DNA of 55,590 nucleotides, taken from the NCBI RefSeq assembly GCF_003113265.1, contig NZ_PUIV01000026.1, forward strand, positions 1-55,590. The letters run 5' to 3'. The DNA is from Methylosinus sporium. GTDB taxonomy: Bacteria > Pseudomonadota > Alphaproteobacteria > Rhizobiales > Beijerinckiaceae. How positions within the stretch are numbered: position 1 is the stretch's first letter; every line of letters begins with the position of its first letter. A model generated the notes under the pieces. It searched no databases. It had not been told where the DNA came from and saw nothing but the letters and a program-made list of their open reading frames with translations. A program made the position numbers and the translations under genes. Shown here piece after piece: positions 14,531 to 22,544 of the stretch.

Positions 14531-15907
14531 CTAGCGCGCCTCGACGGCCTCATCGAGCCGCAGCGGATAGTCGCCCGTGCGCAAAAGGCCCGCCAGCGCC
14601 TCTGCGGAGCCCGCCCAGGACAAAATGTCGCAGGCGGGCGCGGCAGGCGGCGCGGCGAGCGTCTCCTTCAGGCGGGCCAGCAGAGCCTCGCTGTCGCCAG
14701 GCGCGAAATAGGAGACCCATTCGCCGCCGACCTCCCGAAACACGCGAATGTCGCTCGCTATGGCGCGCGCGCCGAAATGCGCGGCCTCGACCAGCGGCAG
14801 GCCGAAACCTTCGGCGATCGAGGGAAACACCAGCGCGCGCGTGCGCTCGTACAGATAGCGAAGATCGGCGTCGCTCGCGTCCTGGAGCCAGAACAGGCGC
14901 TGTCCGAATTCGGGATGCTCCAAAATGCGCCGCTCGAGCGCGCGCACATTCCAGCCCTTCGAGCCGACGATGACATAACGGACGTCGGCGCCCTCCTCCC
15001 ACCAGCGATCGAAGGCGCGAAGCGCTATCGCATGGCCTTTTCGCGGCTCCAACGTGCCGACGCTGAGATAGAGCGGCCGATCGCCCTCCACTGCGGCGAT
15101 GGCGCGCGGCGACGGCGCAGCGTCGCCGGGCGCCCGAAAATCCGCGCCGAGCGGCCACCAGCCGAGCTGCAAGCCACGCTTGCAGGGCAAAGACTTCATT
15201 CGGGCGTAGACCGCGAAATCGTCGATGACGGCCTTGGAAATGCCGACGATCGCATCGCTCTCGCGGACGAGAAGATCGAACCATTCCACAAAAGCAAGAT
15301 GCGCCGAATGCGTCACCACCGACGGATAGAGAATTGGAATGAGGTCATACAGGCAGCCGATGGTCTCGCCGCCCGCCCGCGCCACCTTGTCGATCATCTG
15401 CGAATATTCCGCGGTGAGATGCCAGCCGGCGTCGAGCAGCAGAAATTTGTCGCCGGCCGCAGGCGTTACCTCGTCGGGAAGATTCGCATGGGCGAAATGG
15501 GAATAGAGGCGCCCATTCTCCATGAAGACCGGAATTGCGGCGCCGCTCTCGACCATAGCGCGCGCGATTTCCCGCACGACGCGTTGAATGCCGGTGCGGC
15601 CGATGGTGCGATGAGTCGCCGTCATATCGACGAGCAGACGGGCGCGCGTCGCGGGCGCCGGAATATCGCCCGCAAGGGCCGTGCGCCACGCCCTGGCCGC
15701 ATCGCCGCCGGGCTTTCGCCAGACGCCGTCATGCAGCCGGCCGAGACCGACGAGGCGCGTCACAGTCCAATAGAATTCACGGGCCCGCGCATAGAGAAAT
15801 TTCGTGACGTCGTCGACCTCGCTGCGCGCGAGCTCGTCGATCTCCGCCTTCATCTCTCGCAGAAGATAGGCCTCGATTTGGCCATCGCCCGGCGTTCTTT
15901 CGACCAT
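14531..15907 (-). CDS. Glycosyltransferase, GT4 (group 1) family
   Basis: A GT-B fold glycosyltransferase of about 458 residues. The N-terminal lobe has a helical extension (about 1-85) and then LLVDMTATHR and TGIQRVVREI. The C-terminal lobe has the nucleotide-sugar binding features LSVGTLEPRKG and the SIAEGFGLPLVEAA motif, whose EGFGLP...E pattern is typical of GT4 retaining enzymes. The acceptor is unknown; a role in a surface polysaccharide is likely. The frame begins with a TTG at 15940; the ATG at 15907 with GAGG upstream is preferred. A second, related glycosyltransferase lies at 52631-53911. Confidence 0.85.
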   Translation of the reverse strand: MVERTPGDGQIEAYLLREMKAEIDELARSEVDDVTKFLYARAREFYWTVTRLVGLGRLHDGVWRKPGGDAARAWRTALAGDIPAPATRARLLVDMTATHRTIGRTGIQRVVREIARAMVESGAAIPVFMENGRLYSHFAHANLPDEVTPAAGDKFLLLDAGWHLTAEYSQMIDKVARAGGETIGCLYDLIPILYPSVVTHSAHLAFVEWFDLLVRESDAIVGISKAVIDDFAVYARMKSLPCKRGLQLGWWPLGADFRAPGDAAPSPRAIAAVEGDRPLYLSVGTLEPRKGHAIALRAFDRWWEEGADVRYVIVGSKGWNVRALERRILEHPEFGQRLFWLQDASDADLRYLYERTRALVFPSIAEGFGLPLVEAAHFGARAIASDIRVFREVGGEWVSYFAPGDSEALLARLKETLAAPPAAPACDILSWAGSAEALAGLLRTGDYPLRLDEAVEAR

Positions 15908-16077
15908 ATGTCCGCGACCTCGCTGCCGTCGTCGTGACAATAACGGGAGGGCCGAGCAAATCCAAACGCGCTTTCAGCGCCGGCGGGGCCCCGGATGTGC
16001 GGGCCTCGAATACGAAGACGCCGACCGTGATCCACTGACGGATCGCGGCCGGCGTGGCGAGAACGAGAGTGTCCCGC

Positions 16078-16194
16078 TCAACCCCCGTGGGAGATGATGG
16101 GGGCGAAGTGGATCAGGGTGACGATCAGCACGATCGCGCCGATGAACCACGCCAGAGACTTGACGATGTCCTTCCCAGAAGTCTGCAGAGCCAT
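16078..16194 (-). CDS. 38-residue membrane peptide ending in SHGG
   Basis: A tiny gene. The peptide begins MALQTSGKDIVKSLAW, has one hydrophobic helix (about 14-34) and ends PIISHGG, so its C-terminus carries a histidine. GGAGAAG sits at ideal distance (GGAG plus six bases) before the ATG at 16194, while the in-frame ATG at 16206 has no such site. It lies 142 bases downstream of the PCuAC gene on the same strand and may be the third member of the copper module. It could be a small subunit of a membrane complex; that is inference. No family is recognised. Confidence 0.6.
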   Translation of the reverse strand: MALQTSGKDIVKSLAWFIGAIVLIVTLIHFAPIISHGG

Positions 16195-16336
16195 TTTCTT
16201 CTCCATTAGACGCCGCCGCTCGTTTTTTCGAATTGGCTGCGCGCAGAGGCGTCGAGACGTCGCAGCTTGACCTATCGAATGGCGACATATTGCGTCGCGC
16301 GCAAGTTAATTTTTCGAGCAGCGCGATGAAAGCGGC

Positions 16337-16939
16337 TCACTGCGCCGGCGGCGCCTCGCCGCCGCCCTTCATATCCTCATGGCCAGAGCGATGATCCTCG
16401 CCCTGCGCGGCGCCTTCCTGTGGCGTATCTGTGACGCCGCGGCCATGCGCTTTTTCCCAACGCTCCATCGCCTCGGCGTCATGCGCATGTGCGGCGTCGG
16501 GCGCGTCGATGGACGCTTCTATCGGCAGCTCGCCTGCCTTTTCGAACACGAGAGTAACCTCGAACCCCCGGCCGACCGGATTGATCTTCTTGATGCCGGA
16601 GAGACGAATGAAAGAGCCTCCAGGCGCGAGAGCGACTTTCGAGCCATTGGGAAAGAAAATCGCATCCGTCGCGACTGCGAAATGAGGCGCGACATGCAGA
16701 GCGAAACCGCCGATCTCGGGAGATTTTACCGCGATGAGACGATCGGCAGCGTCGCCGCGATTGTAGACCGCCATGAAGAGATCGGCCTCGCTCTCGCCGT
16801 CCCGCGGCGCGCGCAGCCAGGGGTGCTCGACCTCGAGCCCACCCTTTCTATATTCGTGCGCGCTCGCGACGCCGAGCCCGCTCGCCGCCAATGCAGCGCC
16901 TCCGGTCAGCAATAGAACGCGCCGTCGATCGATAGACAT
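16337..16939 (-). CDS. PCuAC-domain periplasmic copper protein with N-terminal His (PmoF-like)
   Basis: A 200-residue exported protein. The signal peptide (MSIDRRRVLLL... to ASA) is predicted to cleave just before HEYRKGG, giving a mature N-terminal histidine. The PCuAC fold follows (about 40-150: HPWLRAPRDGE, AVYNRGDAADRLI, then FEVTLVFEKAGEL). The usual Cu(I) motif of PCuAC proteins (H-x10-M-x21-H-x-M) is not kept: FALHVAPHF retains His, but the later HxM position reads FIR. PCuAC domains of methane oxidisers are known to bind Cu(II) with a histidine brace, which fits here. The C-terminal ~50 residues are His/Asp/Glu-rich (AHAHDAE, DHRSGHEDM). AAGGAGG precedes the ATG. It lies 68 bases after the pmoD-like gene. 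Confidence 0.82.
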   Translation of the reverse strand: MSIDRRRVLLLTGGAALAASGLGVASAHEYRKGGLEVEHPWLRAPRDGESEADLFMAVYNRGDAADRLIAVKSPEIGGFALHVAPHFAVATDAIFFPNGSKVALAPGGSFIRLSGIKKINPVGRGFEVTLVFEKAGELPIEASIDAPDAAHAHDAEAMERWEKAHGRGVTDTPQEGAAQGEDHRSGHEDMKGGGEAPPAQ

Positions 16940-17007
16940 GCCCGCCTCCTTTTCGGCGAACCGCAATGTCGCGGCGCGCTCGCAACGACGAAGATGATCC
17001 GCTGCGA

Positions 17008-17577
17008 TCAGGCTCGCGGCGGCTTCGTCTTGAAGGAATTCTTGTACCAGAGTCCGAATCCGACCAGTCCCAGCCCCGCAAAAAATGCAGCGATGGTGAT
17101 GTCGCGGCTCTCTGTCTCGCCGACCGAGAAAGGAAAGCGCGAAACATACTCTTTCGTCTCGTCATCGCTTCGCGCCTTCACCAGGCCGATGAACTTGCCC
17201 TTTTTCTTGAAGTCGTATTCGAAATTGAGCGTGCCGGTGCGATATTTCTTCGGCTGCACATAGGTCTCGGTGTTTTGCTCGAGATTCTCGTCGTCGCGCG
17301 ACTGACCGACGTCGCGCAGAATGCGGATTTCCAAATTCATGTCGCGCAGCTCGTCCTGCACGGCGTCGAGAACGATGATGGTCGGGCCGACATCGGGAAT
17401 GTCGTCACAAAATTGCTCGCGCGACTTCAGCGGCTGATAGCCGGTGAAATTCATTTGATCGGGTCCGATCTTCATCTTGCATTGGCCTTCGTCGATGCTG
17501 ACGCCGCCATGCGCCTGCGCCTGCGTCGCCAGACCGATGCTCGCAAAAATCACGGCGGCTGAAATTCGGATGATCAT
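17008..17577 (-). CDS. pmoD: PmoD-like periplasmic copper protein with C-terminal membrane helix
   Basis: A 189-residue protein. The signal peptide of about 22 residues ends AQA, so the mature protein should start with histidine (HGGVSIDEGQ). A soluble domain of about 130 residues holds Cys33-x-Met35, Met42 in MNFTGYQP and Cys57 in EQFCDDIP, then TIIVLDAV. One membrane helix (about 160-176) and a short basic tail follow. This layout and the Cys/Met pattern match the PmoD/AmoD family of methane and ammonia oxidisers, whose dimer forms a CuA-type site. GGGAGG precedes the ATG at 17577; the longer frame to 17649 lacks a signal peptide at its start. It is first in the copper module, divergent from marR. 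Confidence 0.75.
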   Translation of the reverse strand: MIIRISAAVIFASIGLATQAQAHGGVSIDEGQCKMKIGPDQMNFTGYQPLKSREQFCDDIPDVGPTIIVLDAVQDELRDMNLEIRILRDVGQSRDDENLEQNTETYVQPKKYRTGTLNFEYDFKKKGKFIGLVKARSDDETKEYVSRFPFSVGETESRDITIAAFFAGLGLVGFGLWYKNSFKTKPPRA

Positions 17578-17654
17578 GGATTCCCTCCCGGCTTCGCGCG
17601 TCGTTCGCGCGCATGTTTTTTTTGCGAGCCGCCGCCGCCCGTCGCTCAATCGTT

Positions 17655-17684
17655 ATACGACGGATATATATCGTATAGCGATAT
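17655..17684. promoter_or_regulatory. Overlapping inverted repeats between pmoD-like gene and marR
   Basis: An A+T-rich island in GC-rich surroundings. ATACGA (17655-17660) is mirrored by TCGTAT (17671-17676), and ATATCG (17668-17673) by CGATAT (17679-17684). It lies about 80 bases upstream of the pmoD-like ATG and 124 bases before the marR ATG. MarR proteins bind such short palindromes in divergent promoters, so this is a likely operator overlapping a promoter. Binding itself is inferred. Confidence 0.5.
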
Positions 17685-17807
17685 AAATGCAAGACCGTTC
17701 TGCGCCCCCACGGATGCGCGCCCCGGCGGACGCCTTGACCGCGCGCAGGGCGAAGGCCATCATGCGCTTTCGGCCGGGGAAGGCCGGATGCGGGGAGAGC
17801 AAAAACA

Positions 17808-18305
17808 ATGTCGACGGCGCTCGAGAGCCGCGCTCAGGAAGCCGACGAAAGCCGTCCCTCCGAGGAAGAGCTTCGCGCGCTCGCGAATTTCCGCTATGCG
17901 CTACGGCAATTTCTCGCATTCAGCGAGCAGGCGGCGGCCGACGTCGGCCTCACCATGCAGCGCTATCAGGCTCTGCTCGCCATAAAAACCTTTCGCGCCG
18001 GCGCGCATATCAGCGTCGGCGAACTCGCCGAGCAATTGCTGATCCGCGACCACAGCGCCGCGGAGCTGGTGTCGCGTCTCGAGCAGGCCAAGCTCGTCAA
18101 ACGCAAGAACGACCCTCTCGATCGGCGCCGCTCGCTCCTCGTGCTGACGACGCTCGGCGACCGCCGGCTTTCGCAGCTCGCTTTCGTGCATCTCCGCAAG
18201 CTGCGCGCCGATAGAAGCGCCTTTCTGCGTCTCTTCGAGACAGAGCACGCGGGGGACGAAGCGGCGCAGGGTATTGCGCCCGACGAGCCGGCGCAACGCC
18301 GATGA
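17808..18305 (+). CDS. MarR-family winged-helix transcriptional regulator
   Basis: A 165-residue protein with the MarR fold: an N-terminal dimerisation helix (about 20-45), LTMQRYQALLAI, the recognition-helix region HISVGELAEQLLIRDHSAAE, and the wing with DPLDRRRSLLVLTTLG (the DRR signature). The ligand is unknown. It faces the pmoD-like gene across a region with inverted repeats and overlaps the next gene by ATGA, so it probably controls itself and perhaps the copper genes. The C-terminal ~25 residues are a low-complexity acidic tail not needed for the fold. Confidence 0.85.
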   Translation: MSTALESRAQEADESRPSEEELRALANFRYALRQFLAFSEQAAADVGLTMQRYQALLAIKTFRAGAHISVGELAEQLLIRDHSAAELVSRLEQAKLVKRKNDPLDRRRSLLVLTTLGDRRLSQLAFVHLRKLRADRSAFLRLFETEHAGDEAAQGIAPDEPAQRR

Positions 18306-18673
18306 GACGCGCCGGCCGTCTCGCACTCTCGCTTTCGCTTCTATTCGCATCGCTCTGCGACGCGGCTGCGGCGCAGGAAGCAGCGATGCGCCCCAATTTA
18401 TTCATCAAGCGCGGCGCCGTCGTCTGCCAGCGGCGACAAGATGTGATGAAGATCGAGCGCGCGACCAACAGTCTGCGCTATTTCGGCCAGCTTCGCGCGC
18501 TCGTCGCCGAGGGACGCTGCCGACGCTCTGTCGAGCGCGAAAAAATCGTCGCGATCGAACAAATCGAGCGGCATTCGATCGCCTCGATCCGAACCGACGA
18601 AAAGCCCGACGCCATTCGGTGGATCTCGGCGCGCGGCATTCGGCAGATCGAGCGCCGCTGGCGCCGTCGCTAG
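18302..18673 (+). CDS. Small secreted basic protein coupled to marR
   Basis: A 123-residue protein with a signal peptide (MRRAGRLALSLSLLFASLCDAAAA, cleavage near AAAAQ). The mature part is basic with two cysteines (VVCQRR, EGRCRR) that could form a disulfide, and ends RRWRRR. Its ATG overlaps the marR stop (ATGA), so translation is likely coupled. No domain is recognised. It may be a sensor accessory or an effector of the MarR circuit; this is only from position. Confidence 0.6.
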   Translation: MRRAGRLALSLSLLFASLCDAAAAQEAAMRPNLFIKRGAVVCQRRQDVMKIERATNSLRYFGQLRALVAEGRCRRSVEREKIVAIEQIERHSIASIRTDEKPDAIRWISARGIRQIERRWRRR

Positions 18674-20227: not shown

Positions 20228-21283
20228 TCAGGCCGCCATGACGCGGCGGCCTGCGTTCATCAGGGCGAAAGGCGCGCCGGACAAAAGAATGTCCAGCGCG
20301 GCGAGCGATTGATGCCGTCCGTTCACCGAGAGCCGCGGCAGCGCCAGGAGATGATCGCAGTGCGCGGGAAAAATCATGCCCGGACGCGTCGTCGCCGCGC
20401 TCGCGAAGCCGAGCAGCGCGGCGAGCTCGAACTCTCTTCGTCCCGCCGACGTCGGATCGCCGACCGGATAGCAAAAATGCCGAACCGGACGCTCCAGCTC
20501 GGATTCTATGCGCAGCCGACTCTCGGTCATCTCATAGATCGCCGCAGCGCAATCGACCTTGGCGAGCCGAGCGTGGGTGACGGAATGCGCGCCGACCGTC
20601 GCCAGTTCGTGACGCGAAAGCGCGCGCAGCTCGCTCCATCCGAGGCACAGGCGCCGCGTCAGCGCCAGAGGCTCGAGCCGCGCCTCGGCGGAGAGCGCGG
20701 TGACGACGCGCAGCAGCTCCGCCTCGTCCCCGGCGCGCAATTGCGCATAGATTTCTGCGAAAGCGGCGCGCTTTTCTTCCGCCGTCGCCGCGGCGCGCGA
20801 GACCCGCTTGCCGCCCGCGACGACGTCGACGCGATCGAGACGGCGGACCGCCTCCTCGAGCTCGACCCACCATAGCCGCGCCGACGCATCGGCGTAGCCG
20901 GCGGTGATATAGAGCGTGAAAGGCGCGCCATGGCGCTCCAGCACGGGCAGCGCATGTTCGACGAAATCCCGATAGCCGTCGTCGAAGGTGAGCACGGCGA
21001 AGGGCGCCGCCGAAGCGCCGTCACGCAGCCGCGTGAGCGCCGTCTCCAGAGAGACGATCGCAACGCCGCGCTGGCGCAGCCATAAGATCAGCGCGTTCAA
21101 GAACTCCGGGGTGATCTCCAGCGGCTGATTGGGCTCGAAAGCCTGCTCGAGCCGCGGCCGCACGCGATGAAACATCAAAATCGCGCCGAGTCCGCGCGTA
21201 AACGGCTCGGCCAGCCGATGAGCGCCGCTCGCGCGGAAAAACTCCATCCCCGCCTCGATCGCAAATCGACGCCATTTCGTCAT
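20228..21283 (-). CDS. Polysaccharide deacetylase (NodB/CE4 family)
   Basis: A protein of about 351 residues with the CE4 signatures: LTFDDGYRD (first catalytic Asp and metal Asp) and GAHSVTHARL (metal histidines, HxxxH), plus HFCYPVGD downstream. CE4 enzymes remove N- or O-acetyl groups from sugars such as GlcNAc polymers. No signal peptide is obvious, so the site of action is unclear; some GT-associated members act in the cytoplasm. It opens the exopolysaccharide region and is divergent from the FemAB-like gene. The ATG at 21283 has GGGAGG upstream and is preferred over the frame start at 21370. Confidence 0.85.
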   Translation of the reverse strand: MTKWRRFAIEAGMEFFRASGAHRLAEPFTRGLGAILMFHRVRPRLEQAFEPNQPLEITPEFLNALILWLRQRGVAIVSLETALTRLRDGASAAPFAVLTFDDGYRDFVEHALPVLERHGAPFTLYITAGYADASARLWWVELEEAVRRLDRVDVVAGGKRVSRAAATAEEKRAAFAEIYAQLRAGDEAELLRVVTALSAEARLEPLALTRRLCLGWSELRALSRHELATVGAHSVTHARLAKVDCAAAIYEMTESRLRIESELERPVRHFCYPVGDPTSAGRREFELAALLGFASAATTRPGMIFPAHCDHLLALPRLSVNGRHQSLAALDILLSGAPFALMNAGRRVMAA

Positions 21284-21392
21284 AGCCGCGCCTCCCGCGC
21301 TATTTTTCTCATCCCGCACCATCTCGAGGTCTCGTTGACCTTTCCTTGCTAGTGTCGCGAAGAAGCGCAAACATCAGCAATGCGGCGGCGGT

Positions 21393-22544
21393 ATGGTTAA
21401 CGCAAGAGCAGAAAACGTCATGGAGCTTTCGCGGTTCGAGGCGGCGGTCGACGACATCTCGCTCGACGTCTTCTCTTCTTTCGAAGACGCGCGCGACGAT
21501 TGGGAGACGCTCTTCGCCAATGCGCCGGCGAGCGCCTATCAATCTTTCGGCTTCGCGCGCGATTGGTTTCAGGCCTTCGGCCGCGCCCGCGGCCTCGAGC
21601 CGATGATCGTCGTCGCGCGCAACTCCGCCGGCGTGCGCCCGCTCGCGCTTCTCGCGCTCGGCGTTTCGCGCCACGGGCCGCTGCGGATCGCGCAATTCCT
21701 CGGCGGCAAGGAGAGCAATTTCAATCTCGGTCTCTTCGCCGCCGACGCGCGCCTCGACGCGGCCGCGATCCGCGCCGCGTTGCGCCGCGCCGCGCATTCG
21801 GCGGGCGTCGATCTCTATCACCTCGGCAATCAGCCGCTCGCCTTCGATGGCGTCGCCAATCCGCTCGCTTTGCTCGGCGCGACTCCGAGCCCGAGCTTCG
21901 CCTATGGGACGAGCCTGCCCGTGACAGTGAGCGAGCTCGACGCGCGCTTCTCGAGCGATGCGCGCAAGAAGCTGCGCAAGAAGCAAGCGCGGCTCGACAA
22001 AATGGGCGCGCTCGTCTTCGAGCATCGCGCGACGGGCGCGCGCGCGGGAGAGATTCTCGAGGCGCTTCTCACGCAAAAGGCCGAGCGATTGCAGGCCCCC
22101 TCCTTCGCGAAGGACGCCATGCGCGACTTTGTGCTCGGTCTCTGCGGCGGCGCGCTCGAGGCTCACGCCGTGACGCTGGACGGACGCATCATCGCGACCT
22201 ATGCCGGCTTCACCCATCGCGGGCGCTTTTCGGCGATGCTCAATTCCTTCGTGGCGGATGAAGAAATCGCGCGTTCGTCGCCGGGCGATCTGCTGCTGCA
22301 TTCGCTGCTGCGCGATCTCGTCGCGCGCGGCGTCACGCGTTTCGATCTCGGCGTCGGCGAAGCGCGCTATAAGAACGCCGTCTGCGACGAGACGATCGCT
22401 CTGGTCGATGCGCTCATTCCCGTGACGCCGCTCGGCGCGCTCGCCGCGCCGATCCTTTCCGCGCTCACGCGCGCAAAACGCGCCGTGAAGCAGAATCCGC
22501 GCCTCCTCGCTTCGCTCACGCGGCTGCGCCGCCTCGCGCGGTAG
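21393..22544 (+). CDS. FemAB/BioF2-like GNAT acetyltransferase of polysaccharide locus
   Basis: A 383-residue protein of the CelD/BioF2-like (Acetyltransf_6) type often found in exopolysaccharide clusters. The N-terminal half has WETLFANAPASAYQSFGF. The C-terminal GNAT half has SDARKKLRKKQARL, then GRIIATYAGF and FDLGVGEARYKNA, the segment that ends the fold in this family. It probably transfers an acyl or aminoacyl group to a sugar or lipid-linked oligosaccharide; the donor is unknown. It converges with the Wzz gene, the two stops being only about 4 bases apart. An internal ATG at 21420 is an alternative start. Confidence 0.75.
   Translation: MVNARAENVMELSRFEAAVDDISLDVFSSFEDARDDWETLFANAPASAYQSFGFARDWFQAFGRARGLEPMIVVARNSAGVRPLALLALGVSRHGPLRIAQFLGGKESNFNLGLFAADARLDAAAIRAALRRAAHSAGVDLYHLGNQPLAFDGVANPLALLGATPSPSFAYGTSLPVTVSELDARFSSDARKKLRKKQARLDKMGALVFEHRATGARAGEILEALLTQKAERLQAPSFAKDAMRDFVLGLCGGALEAHAVTLDGRIIATYAGFTHRGRFSAMLNSFVADEEIARSSPGDLLLHSLLRDLVARGVTRFDLGVGEARYKNAVCDETIALVDALIPVTPLGALAAPILSALTRAKRAVKQNPRLLASLTRLRRLAR

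Follow-up and report, generated by a model that had tools for sequence, protein, structure and literature searches.

A 55,590-nucleotide stretch of Methylosinus sporium (assembly GCF_003113265.1, contig NZ_PUIV01000026.1, positions 1 to 55,590; the window) carries a cluster of copper genes that is probably part of a MarR-repressed periplasmic copper-handling regulon of Methylosinus. Its putative members are a PmoD-like protein (PmoDL), a PCuAC protein, a 38-residue membrane peptide (sm38) and an 89-residue secreted Cys-rich protein (p89) encoded on another contig. We put the probability of this reading, which is built on sequence comparison, at just under 0.6. As a sequence-only reading of the same DNA had reported, three genes follow one another on the minus strand at 16078-17577: PmoDL (17008..17577, 189 aa, Cx8MxnC class), a PmoF-type PCuAC protein (16337..16939, 200 aa from the ATG of MSIDRRR) and sm38 (16078..16194, a single-helix peptide that starts at MALQ and ends in a conserved APIISHG). 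The gaps between them are 68 and 142 nt. A MarR-family regulator is encoded divergently on the plus strand (17808..18305; PF12802, 43.6 bits); the three genes had been described as facing this regulator, and it is indeed there, opposite the PmoD-like gene and not the peptide. Signal cleavage sites and helices in PmoDL, PCuAC and sm38 were read by eye.

The promoter between marR and PmoDL contains two 13-bp palindromes of the type RTCGYNNNACGAY, 21 bp apart. Copy 1 (ATCGTATAGCGAT, 17670..17682) scores 22.8 bits and copy 2 (ATCGTTATACGAC, 17649..17661) 13.5 bits. The setting, read by eye, would suit a repressor: both palindromes come after a CTTGCA box, and copy 1 is followed by an A/T-rich box on the PmoDL strand. 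Each of the 13 aligned MarR-PmoDL promoters, three of them from Methylocystis, has one or more palindromes that fit the loose form RTCG-N5-CGAN, and 10 of the 13 have paired palindromes with starts 21 or 23 bp apart; those of the L056 promoter fall outside the strict form (genomes, contigs and loci are given by our working handles G, C and L). A search of the 3.79-Mb genome finds the strict tandem twice, against 0 times for a backwards control. The second place, C20:46923-46957, precedes the gene for p89, a protein ending in CEAKCGC for which no Pfam or NCBIfam match was found (two scanned). Close p89 orthologues (E < 1e-13; G000, G002, G003, G005, G006 and G008) have an upstream site of at least 20 bits in 6 of 6 cases and a site pair 22 bp apart in 5 of 6, and the pair is kept in G003, where the gene has other neighbours. 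None of seven remote relatives exceeds 7.4 bits upstream. On the same matrix, which leaves out 3 of 26 pattern matches (L040 at 5, L163 at 107 and 147), 99% of 770 background windows of 400 bases score under 12.0 bits with a maximum of 17.4; these windows include L139 and L140, which hold the pmoB-pmoD sites described below.

Sites also accompany the other members of the module at some loci. PmoDL, PCuAC and sm38 have separate sites in G182 (L167), each above 22 bits, and unlinked sm38 copies carry sites of their own in L062 (19.7 bits) and L167 (22.1 and 17.7 bits). Weaker or less clear are those of L165 (14.8 bits), L159 (15.1 bits at -331) and L133 (21.8 bits but 345 bases away). In the window, a weak operator-like palindrome (16274..16286, 10.9 bits, empirical p 0.02) lies 92 nt before the sm38 start, a position common to L062 and L043; the L043 copy scores 10.3 bits at -92 and is joined by a perfect palindrome at -469.

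The neighbourhood is conserved among relatives. MarR and PmoD-like genes diverge in all ten Methylosinus genomes, including G004, whose PmoD copy is broken (L056:5059-5537, with MarR, PCuAC and sm38 intact), and again at the Methylocystis loci L162, L163 and L167, where the PmoD match of L162 lacks its first 44 residues. Two clusters also contain copC and copD, which we count in favour of a copper-handling module: PmoDL-copC-copD-PCuAC-p156-p89 in G006, with copD split over two frames, and PmoDL-PmoD (CuA type)-copC-copD-PCuAC followed by sm38 in G007 (FeB_33; L041/L062), with copC named by likeness.

The tiny membrane peptide noted in the sequence-only reading proves to be a real gene. It is intact in 9 of 10 Methylosinus genomes, at the same locus and never more than 5 kb from PmoDL or what remains of it, and dN (nonsynonymous divergence) is well below dS (synonymous divergence), for example 0.11 versus 2.7 between the window and L043; sm38 is thus under purifying selection as judged from these alignments. 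Invariant residues among nine sequences (alignment A2) include A31, P32, I34, S35 and H36, and a GGAG lies just upstream of the MALQ start. An alternative 42-aa start at 16206 was rejected because it is lost in the orthologue L056 and the GGAG fits the MALQ start. Scans against Pfam and NCBIfam returned no match for sm38. The peptide is also encoded in 12 of 39 Methylocystis genomes (18 copies, 1 to 5 per genome, at varied places); three of these copies neighbour MarR and PmoDL, and a fourth follows copD and PCuAC. When genomes were drawn evenly from the family, sm38 matched in 8 of 149, representing 2 of 43 genera, one of the eight being a doubtful frame in G006. By sequence likeness, sm38 is a Methylosinus/Methylocystis family.

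Other small membrane peptides were encountered in the same genomes. The 38-aa frame of G006 resembles sm38 at E 2.5e-4 and was set aside, as was a 33-aa peptide (MHSNAEVFKALAGIIGALAFFIVVIHQLTRLLG, MHSNAE...; G000:C7:41377-41478, L135:6378-6479, and L112, L113, L115, L116 and L121), which is conserved in six Methylosinus genomes with E values of 0.02 to 0.24 and sits beside other genes. A 35-aa membrane peptide, MLHKVQELKWVVLWILVTIFVFAIFIPTVNRALNL (G000:C22:58561-58668; L138:3562-3669, minus strand), is divergent from the second pmoCAB set, and all 7 Methylosinus genomes inspected have it at 80-100% identity; possibly it is an extra helix for the enzyme of that set. The Methylocystis sm38 relative at L134:6817-6939 (G026) is some 2.5 kb away from genes related to the polysaccharide-deacetylase and GNAT-like genes at 20228-22544 of the window, and the 14 kb taken around it hold no PmoD, PCuAC or MarR relative.

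The sm38 leader is predicted to fold into an H-type pseudoknot (16206..16269, minus strand; GCUGCG/CGCAGC and GACGCC+CUGC/GCGG+GGCGUC) that ends 14 nt before the start codon. Scored as passing when p is at most 0.05 and the element ends 5-22 bases before the start, the best H-type pseudoknot passes in 22 of 27 sm38 leaders, which are not independent since several are near-copies, and in 2 of 120 leaders taken from other genes as controls (a random draw from 169, with 40 shuffles each versus 100 for sm38). Seven of the 120 controls reach p at most 0.05, and the two that pass are those that also meet the placement. In the passing leaders stem 1 has 6-12 pairs and stem 2 has 5-13, and the element stops 12-20 bases short of the start; L170 and L172 are among those that pass, their stem 1 being a different one.

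Covariation agrees with this structure in an alignment (A4) of 16 leaders chosen from the 27 that the pseudoknot test covers, a choice that biases the result in favour of the structure. It omits the near-copies L039, L040, L056, L171 and L172, the differently shaped L133, L159, L163 and L166, and the non-pseudoknot L165 and L167, and places L063 and L170 in the family structure, their own best pseudoknots having had another stem 1. Within A4, two-sided changes occur in 13 of 21 pairs, the covariation score is 0.335, compared with 0.225 for shuffles, none of which reaches it in 500, and sliding the partner strand drops pairing from 82.8% to 31.5-42.5%. A stem 2 covariance model of these 16 leaders, the window sequence among them, gives the window element 62.5 bits. 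Over 17 genomes, every one of the 16 matches scoring more than 38 bits sits immediately before an sm38 gene, with the next at 23.5 bits, among the candidates scored (150 of 1297 to 2980 first-look candidates per genome); six of 22 sm38 copies were missed (G120, two in G177, G182, one in G188, and G192). The plain minimum-free-energy fold is unremarkable in 5 of 6 leaders (z -0.39 to -0.86; L043, z -3.0), as expected if both pseudoknot helices cannot be counted together, and we do not take it as support.

Small translational pseudoknot riboswitches are known from the SAM-II, SAM-V and preQ1 kinds. The sm38 leader shares with them an H-type pseudoknot just before the ribosome site; it differs in having no Rfam match where scanned and in having been seen at one gene family only. 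Rfam 15 returned nothing at gathering level in 5 loci scanned, and the two matches obtained for window positions 15900-18400 are far below gathering and outside the leader element. A more far-reaching reading, which we rate as rather unlikely, is that the leader represents a new metabolite- or metal-sensing pseudoknot RNA class of alphaproteobacterial methanotrophs, tuning a peptide that would help to load, or be part of, methane monooxygenase, on top of a MarR regulon coupling PmoD, PCuAC, the peptide and the secreted Cys-rich protein.

The PCuAC protein is identified by PF04314 (52.5 bits; cut-off 29.4) and by its matches to 6p1g and 6p1f and to PmoF1 (6p16 and 6p17). Its orthologue at the same locus in G003 (L043) shares all 131 residues with PDB 6p1f. 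The precursor has a twin-arginine-like signal (DRRRVLL), an AxA/H cleavage motif (GVASA/HEYRK, the slash marking the cut) that leaves His as mature residue 1, and a His/Asp/Glu-rich tail; the 6p1f alignment begins exactly at that His. The canonical PCuAC copper motif is H(M)X10MX21HXM. The window protein departs from it, with FALHVAP in place of HxM. It has His1 and a further conserved His, and by its homology to PmoF1 6p16 a two-histidine brace is likely. We take 6p1f and 6p1g to be structures from Fisher 2019. The methanotroph PmoF/PCuAC structures (6p16, 6p17, 6p1e, 6p1f and 6p1g) agree with the window protein in homology throughout and in the N-terminal His, and the sole difference seen is the tail, which extends past the crystallised stretch. 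The PmoF of Fisher 2019, work also cited in PMC12537917, binds copper via a histidine brace (PMC8424229, PMC10952591). PmoF-like PCuAC genes at E < 1e-45 number exactly two in each of 10 Methylosinus genomes, one at the locus and one elsewhere; in the four genomes listed (G000, G003, G005 and G007) the second lies within a pmoD-copC-copD-PCuAC tail.

PmoDL has 6cpd (PmoD) as its sole PDB match in a phmmer search (E 1.2e-19, residues 32-153; alignment A5). Both identities proposed from sequence alone, PmoD and PCuAC, are supported; Pfam and NCBIfam scans gave no PmoD match for PmoDL. The C33, M35, M42 and C57 pattern is present, C33 and C57 being both invariant cysteines of the PmoD family, as is the hydrophobic C-terminal stretch. 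The signal peptide (17512-17577, minus strand) ends at an AxA/H motif (TQAQA/HGGVS), so that PmoDL, like PCuAC, is predicted to expose His as mature residue 1, in line with the sequence-only reading. That reading had also tied the N-terminal His of both proteins to the histidine brace; by homology a brace is likely for PCuAC. For PmoDL the mature domain has His only at residue 1, which excludes a two-His brace within one chain; its copper site would be at most mono-His, or intermolecular. The CuA-subclass motif Cx7MxHxnC is likewise absent from PmoDL, which has Cx8M and no His near Cys.

We classed 84 distinct PmoD-type frames (at least one gene is counted twice with different starts, L109 and L265, and three cut frames were left unclassed), 57 of them Cx8M and 12 of the non-Nitrospira CuA type (Cx7MxH). 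AxA/H stands at the expected cleavage site in 56 of the 57 Cx8M frames (55 flagged by script; L031, with ASA/H beyond the script range, added by hand) and in 0 of the 12 CuA-type frames. It is also found in two Nitrospira CuA-type frames, in 3 of 3 Cx9H frames and in the single Cx8MH frame, and in 0 of 6 CxnC frames. Because the frames were collected for their similarity to the window protein, with near-copies among them, they do not sample the family evenly. PmoDL shares with the published Cx8MxnC class of PmoD/AmoD (PMC6189053, 6cpd) a signal peptide, two invariant cysteines, cupredoxin homology, a C-terminal helix, the Cx8M motif and a PCuAC neighbour; the predicted N-terminal His is an addition not found stated in the parts of PMC6189053 consulted. 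The PmoD constructs reported there carry a vector-derived Ser-Met before residue 1 (PMC6189053), which puts a free N-terminal His outside the reach of that study. Further close relatives of PmoDL form a second set, which at 7 of 8 loci listed is found next to genes that by eye resemble lolD/lolE, as expected from the mention of an ABC transporter in PMC6189053.

The sequence-only reading had offered the cluster as a candidate for an undescribed system. For the pair of PmoDL and PCuAC and its chemistry this does not hold: both are already known. The Cx8MxnC class of PmoD near PCuACs was described in 2018, a PmoD of this class binds copper without CuA, and a PCuAC-adjacent, copper-induced pmoD outside the pmo operon is on record from M. 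trichosporium OB3b (MettrDRAFT_3934; PMC6189053, Fig. 3 legend), the induction of the OB3b pair tracking that of the pmo operon and csp1 (PMC6189053); the PCuAC encoded at this locus in another genome has been crystallised. The MettrDRAFT_3934 locus is most likely the window locus, because each genome's other PmoF-like PCuAC copy, where listed, sits in a pmoD-copC-copD-PCuAC tail; this assignment is indirect and not a sequence match. The main texts of two OB3b transcriptome papers contain no pmoD, PCuAC or MarR. What goes beyond the earlier reading are the regulon, the peptide family and the RNA leader.

The module is encoded apart from pmoCAB, as had been claimed: PmoB (PF04744) is found in 10 of 10 Methylosinus genomes, and in the genome of the window its matches lie on contigs C22 and C11, with none on the window contig (C30). 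Two PmoB-profile matches at G000:C11:317462-318475 (55.1 and 47.7 bits) were not reported in the other nine Methylosinus genomes. Compared with the extended pmo operon tail pmoD-copC-copD-PCuAC, the locus has the same kinds of genes, including copC and copD in G006 and G007. It differs in having no pmoCAB in the cluster, a divergent MarR, sm38, and operator-like sites shared with p89.

Taken together, these observations suggest a working model. MarR would bind the palindromes in the divergent promoter and repress the module, releasing them when copper is plentiful, whether its response to copper status is direct or not; release at high copper is suggested because copper induction of the presumed orthologous M. 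trichosporium pair has been published (PMC6189053). The secreted PCuAC would bind Cu(II) through its N-terminal histidine and pass copper to membrane-held PmoDL, with its Cys/Met/Met/Cys cluster plus free His1, which may in turn supply periplasmic copper sites, most likely those of particulate methane monooxygenase (pMMO). At that membrane step sm38 could act as a small helper, its synthesis being gated a second time, at translation, by the RNA pseudoknot. As in the earlier proposal of a delivery chain for methane monooxygenase, we infer that pMMO is where the module delivers copper.

Several results weigh against this model. The MarR protein has no Cys, and scanning for the sigma-70 consensus found no promoter where the operators lie. 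Among five PCuAC upstream stretches scanned, only that of L167 has a site (25.8 bits). The strict site is missing from 22 of 27 sm38 upstream stretches, seven of them in a window-type cluster, and the p89 gene was not found in G001. The loose tandem pattern turns up 40 times across 9 of 10 genomes; PmoDL accounts for 7 of these places and p89 for 4, and most of the remaining 29, like most single sites, were not looked at. The peptide itself is missing in G006, which has pmoB, and for 14 of the 18 Methylocystis copies the stretch taken, in some cases a short contig, holds no window copper protein. Five of 27 leaders fail the pseudoknot test (L063, L165, L167, L173 and L174; the last two show a similar fold, at p 0.06 and 0.15 respectively), and one of the five covariation measures, further pair types, is no better than in shuffles (28 versus 27.7). 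Another regulator may read such sites as well, since the stretch between pmoB and pmoD contains a palindrome that resembles the operator without being the same.

That palindrome (ATCGCANTGCGAT type) occurs between pmoB and pmoD, or before pmoD at a contig end, in 9 of 10 Methylosinus genomes (L060:18996, L139:6530, L140:7114, L237:1062, L239:5038, L242:1028, L245:146, L248:111 and L246:4353). It scores 16.3-19.8 bits, or 12.9 in G006, and was found neither in G007 nor in five further pmo stretches (L238, L240, L241, L243 and L249). We do not count it as a copy of the MarR operator because its inner letters differ. A further operator pair precedes a sulfate-permease-family gene at L203:5003-5039 (G003:C1:4096502-4096538).

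Among other accounts of the locus, the module might buffer copper, confer tolerance to it or take part in electron transfer instead of loading pMMO, which is possible if unlikely. The copC and copD neighbours in relatives would fit, and electron delivery and stabilisation are listed as options for PmoD (PMC6189053), but PmoD occurs only in genomes with copper membrane monooxygenases and the presumed orthologous pair is induced along with the pmo operon and csp1 (PMC6189053). Rather doubtful, too, is the idea that sm38 is a stand-alone small membrane protein, perhaps of the type I toxin sort, whose leader blocks translation and whose copper-gene neighbourhood is partly accidental. A tiny hydrophobic single helix behind a structured leader would suit this, as would the scattered copies, 1 to 5 per genome, in 12 of 39 Methylocystis genomes and the 14 of 18 copies with no window copper genes in the stretch taken. 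Against it stand the single intact copy at one locus in 9 of 10 Methylosinus genomes, the operator-like sites at some unlinked copies and the conserved APIISHG end.

We consider it improbable that pMMO contains sm38 as a so far overlooked helix subunit, produced along with the proteins that supply its copper. The peptide has so far been seen only in two methanotroph genera (PmoB was checked in Methylosinus alone), and type II pMMO crystals presumably contain unassigned helices, although no mention of them was found in the paper passages checked. Archaeal ammonia monooxygenase has small membrane subunits (PMC10030591). However, sm38 is not beside pmoCAB, is missing from the pmoB-containing G006 and was not found in 27 of 39 Methylocystis genomes; nor does it have a meaningful PDB match (one chance-level match, E 0.62, in a library without chains of unknown residues). 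A relay of two histidine-brace proteins to pMMO, suggested by the His at the start of both mature proteins and by the brace published for the homologous PmoF1 (PMC8424229, PMC10952591), is very improbable given that the mature domain of PmoDL has no second His.

Some neighbouring genes have no assigned family. A secreted 123-aa protein (p123; 18302-18673, plus strand) overlaps the end of marR by 4 bases; no family was returned for it by Pfam and NCBIfam scans, and among nine other Methylosinus loci a relative beside marR is present only in G006 and G007. A secreted protein of 156-158 aa with a CLFxCxPT start (p156; L163:6402-6872, L161:5252-5722, L162:5280-5750 and L044:1162-1638) is found in Methylocystis with the copper genes on one side and sm38 on the other, and in G006 it follows PCuAC; it has no Pfam or NCBIfam match (two scanned). 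The CopD of the G007 cluster (L041:1571-3523) has a C-terminal cytochrome c domain.

Our literature searches did not find the regulon, its p89 member, the sm38 family or its leader described. For the regulon this was judged by titles among the matches listed in a weak search, and for RNA, nothing linking Methylosinus or Methylocystis with structured RNA was found among the matches listed in a broad, weak one; in neither case do we claim absence from print. The route of copper to methane monooxygenase and the activity loss of the isolated enzyme are open questions (PMC6189053). The analysis adds a candidate operator, a likely regulator and four apparently co-regulated genes, all testable in Methylosinus, and in the sm38 leader a predicted structured element with one gene family as the only target seen. 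The copper site of the non-CuA PmoDs may deserve a second look, as the predicted N-terminal histidine would have been masked by vector residues in the 2018 constructs.

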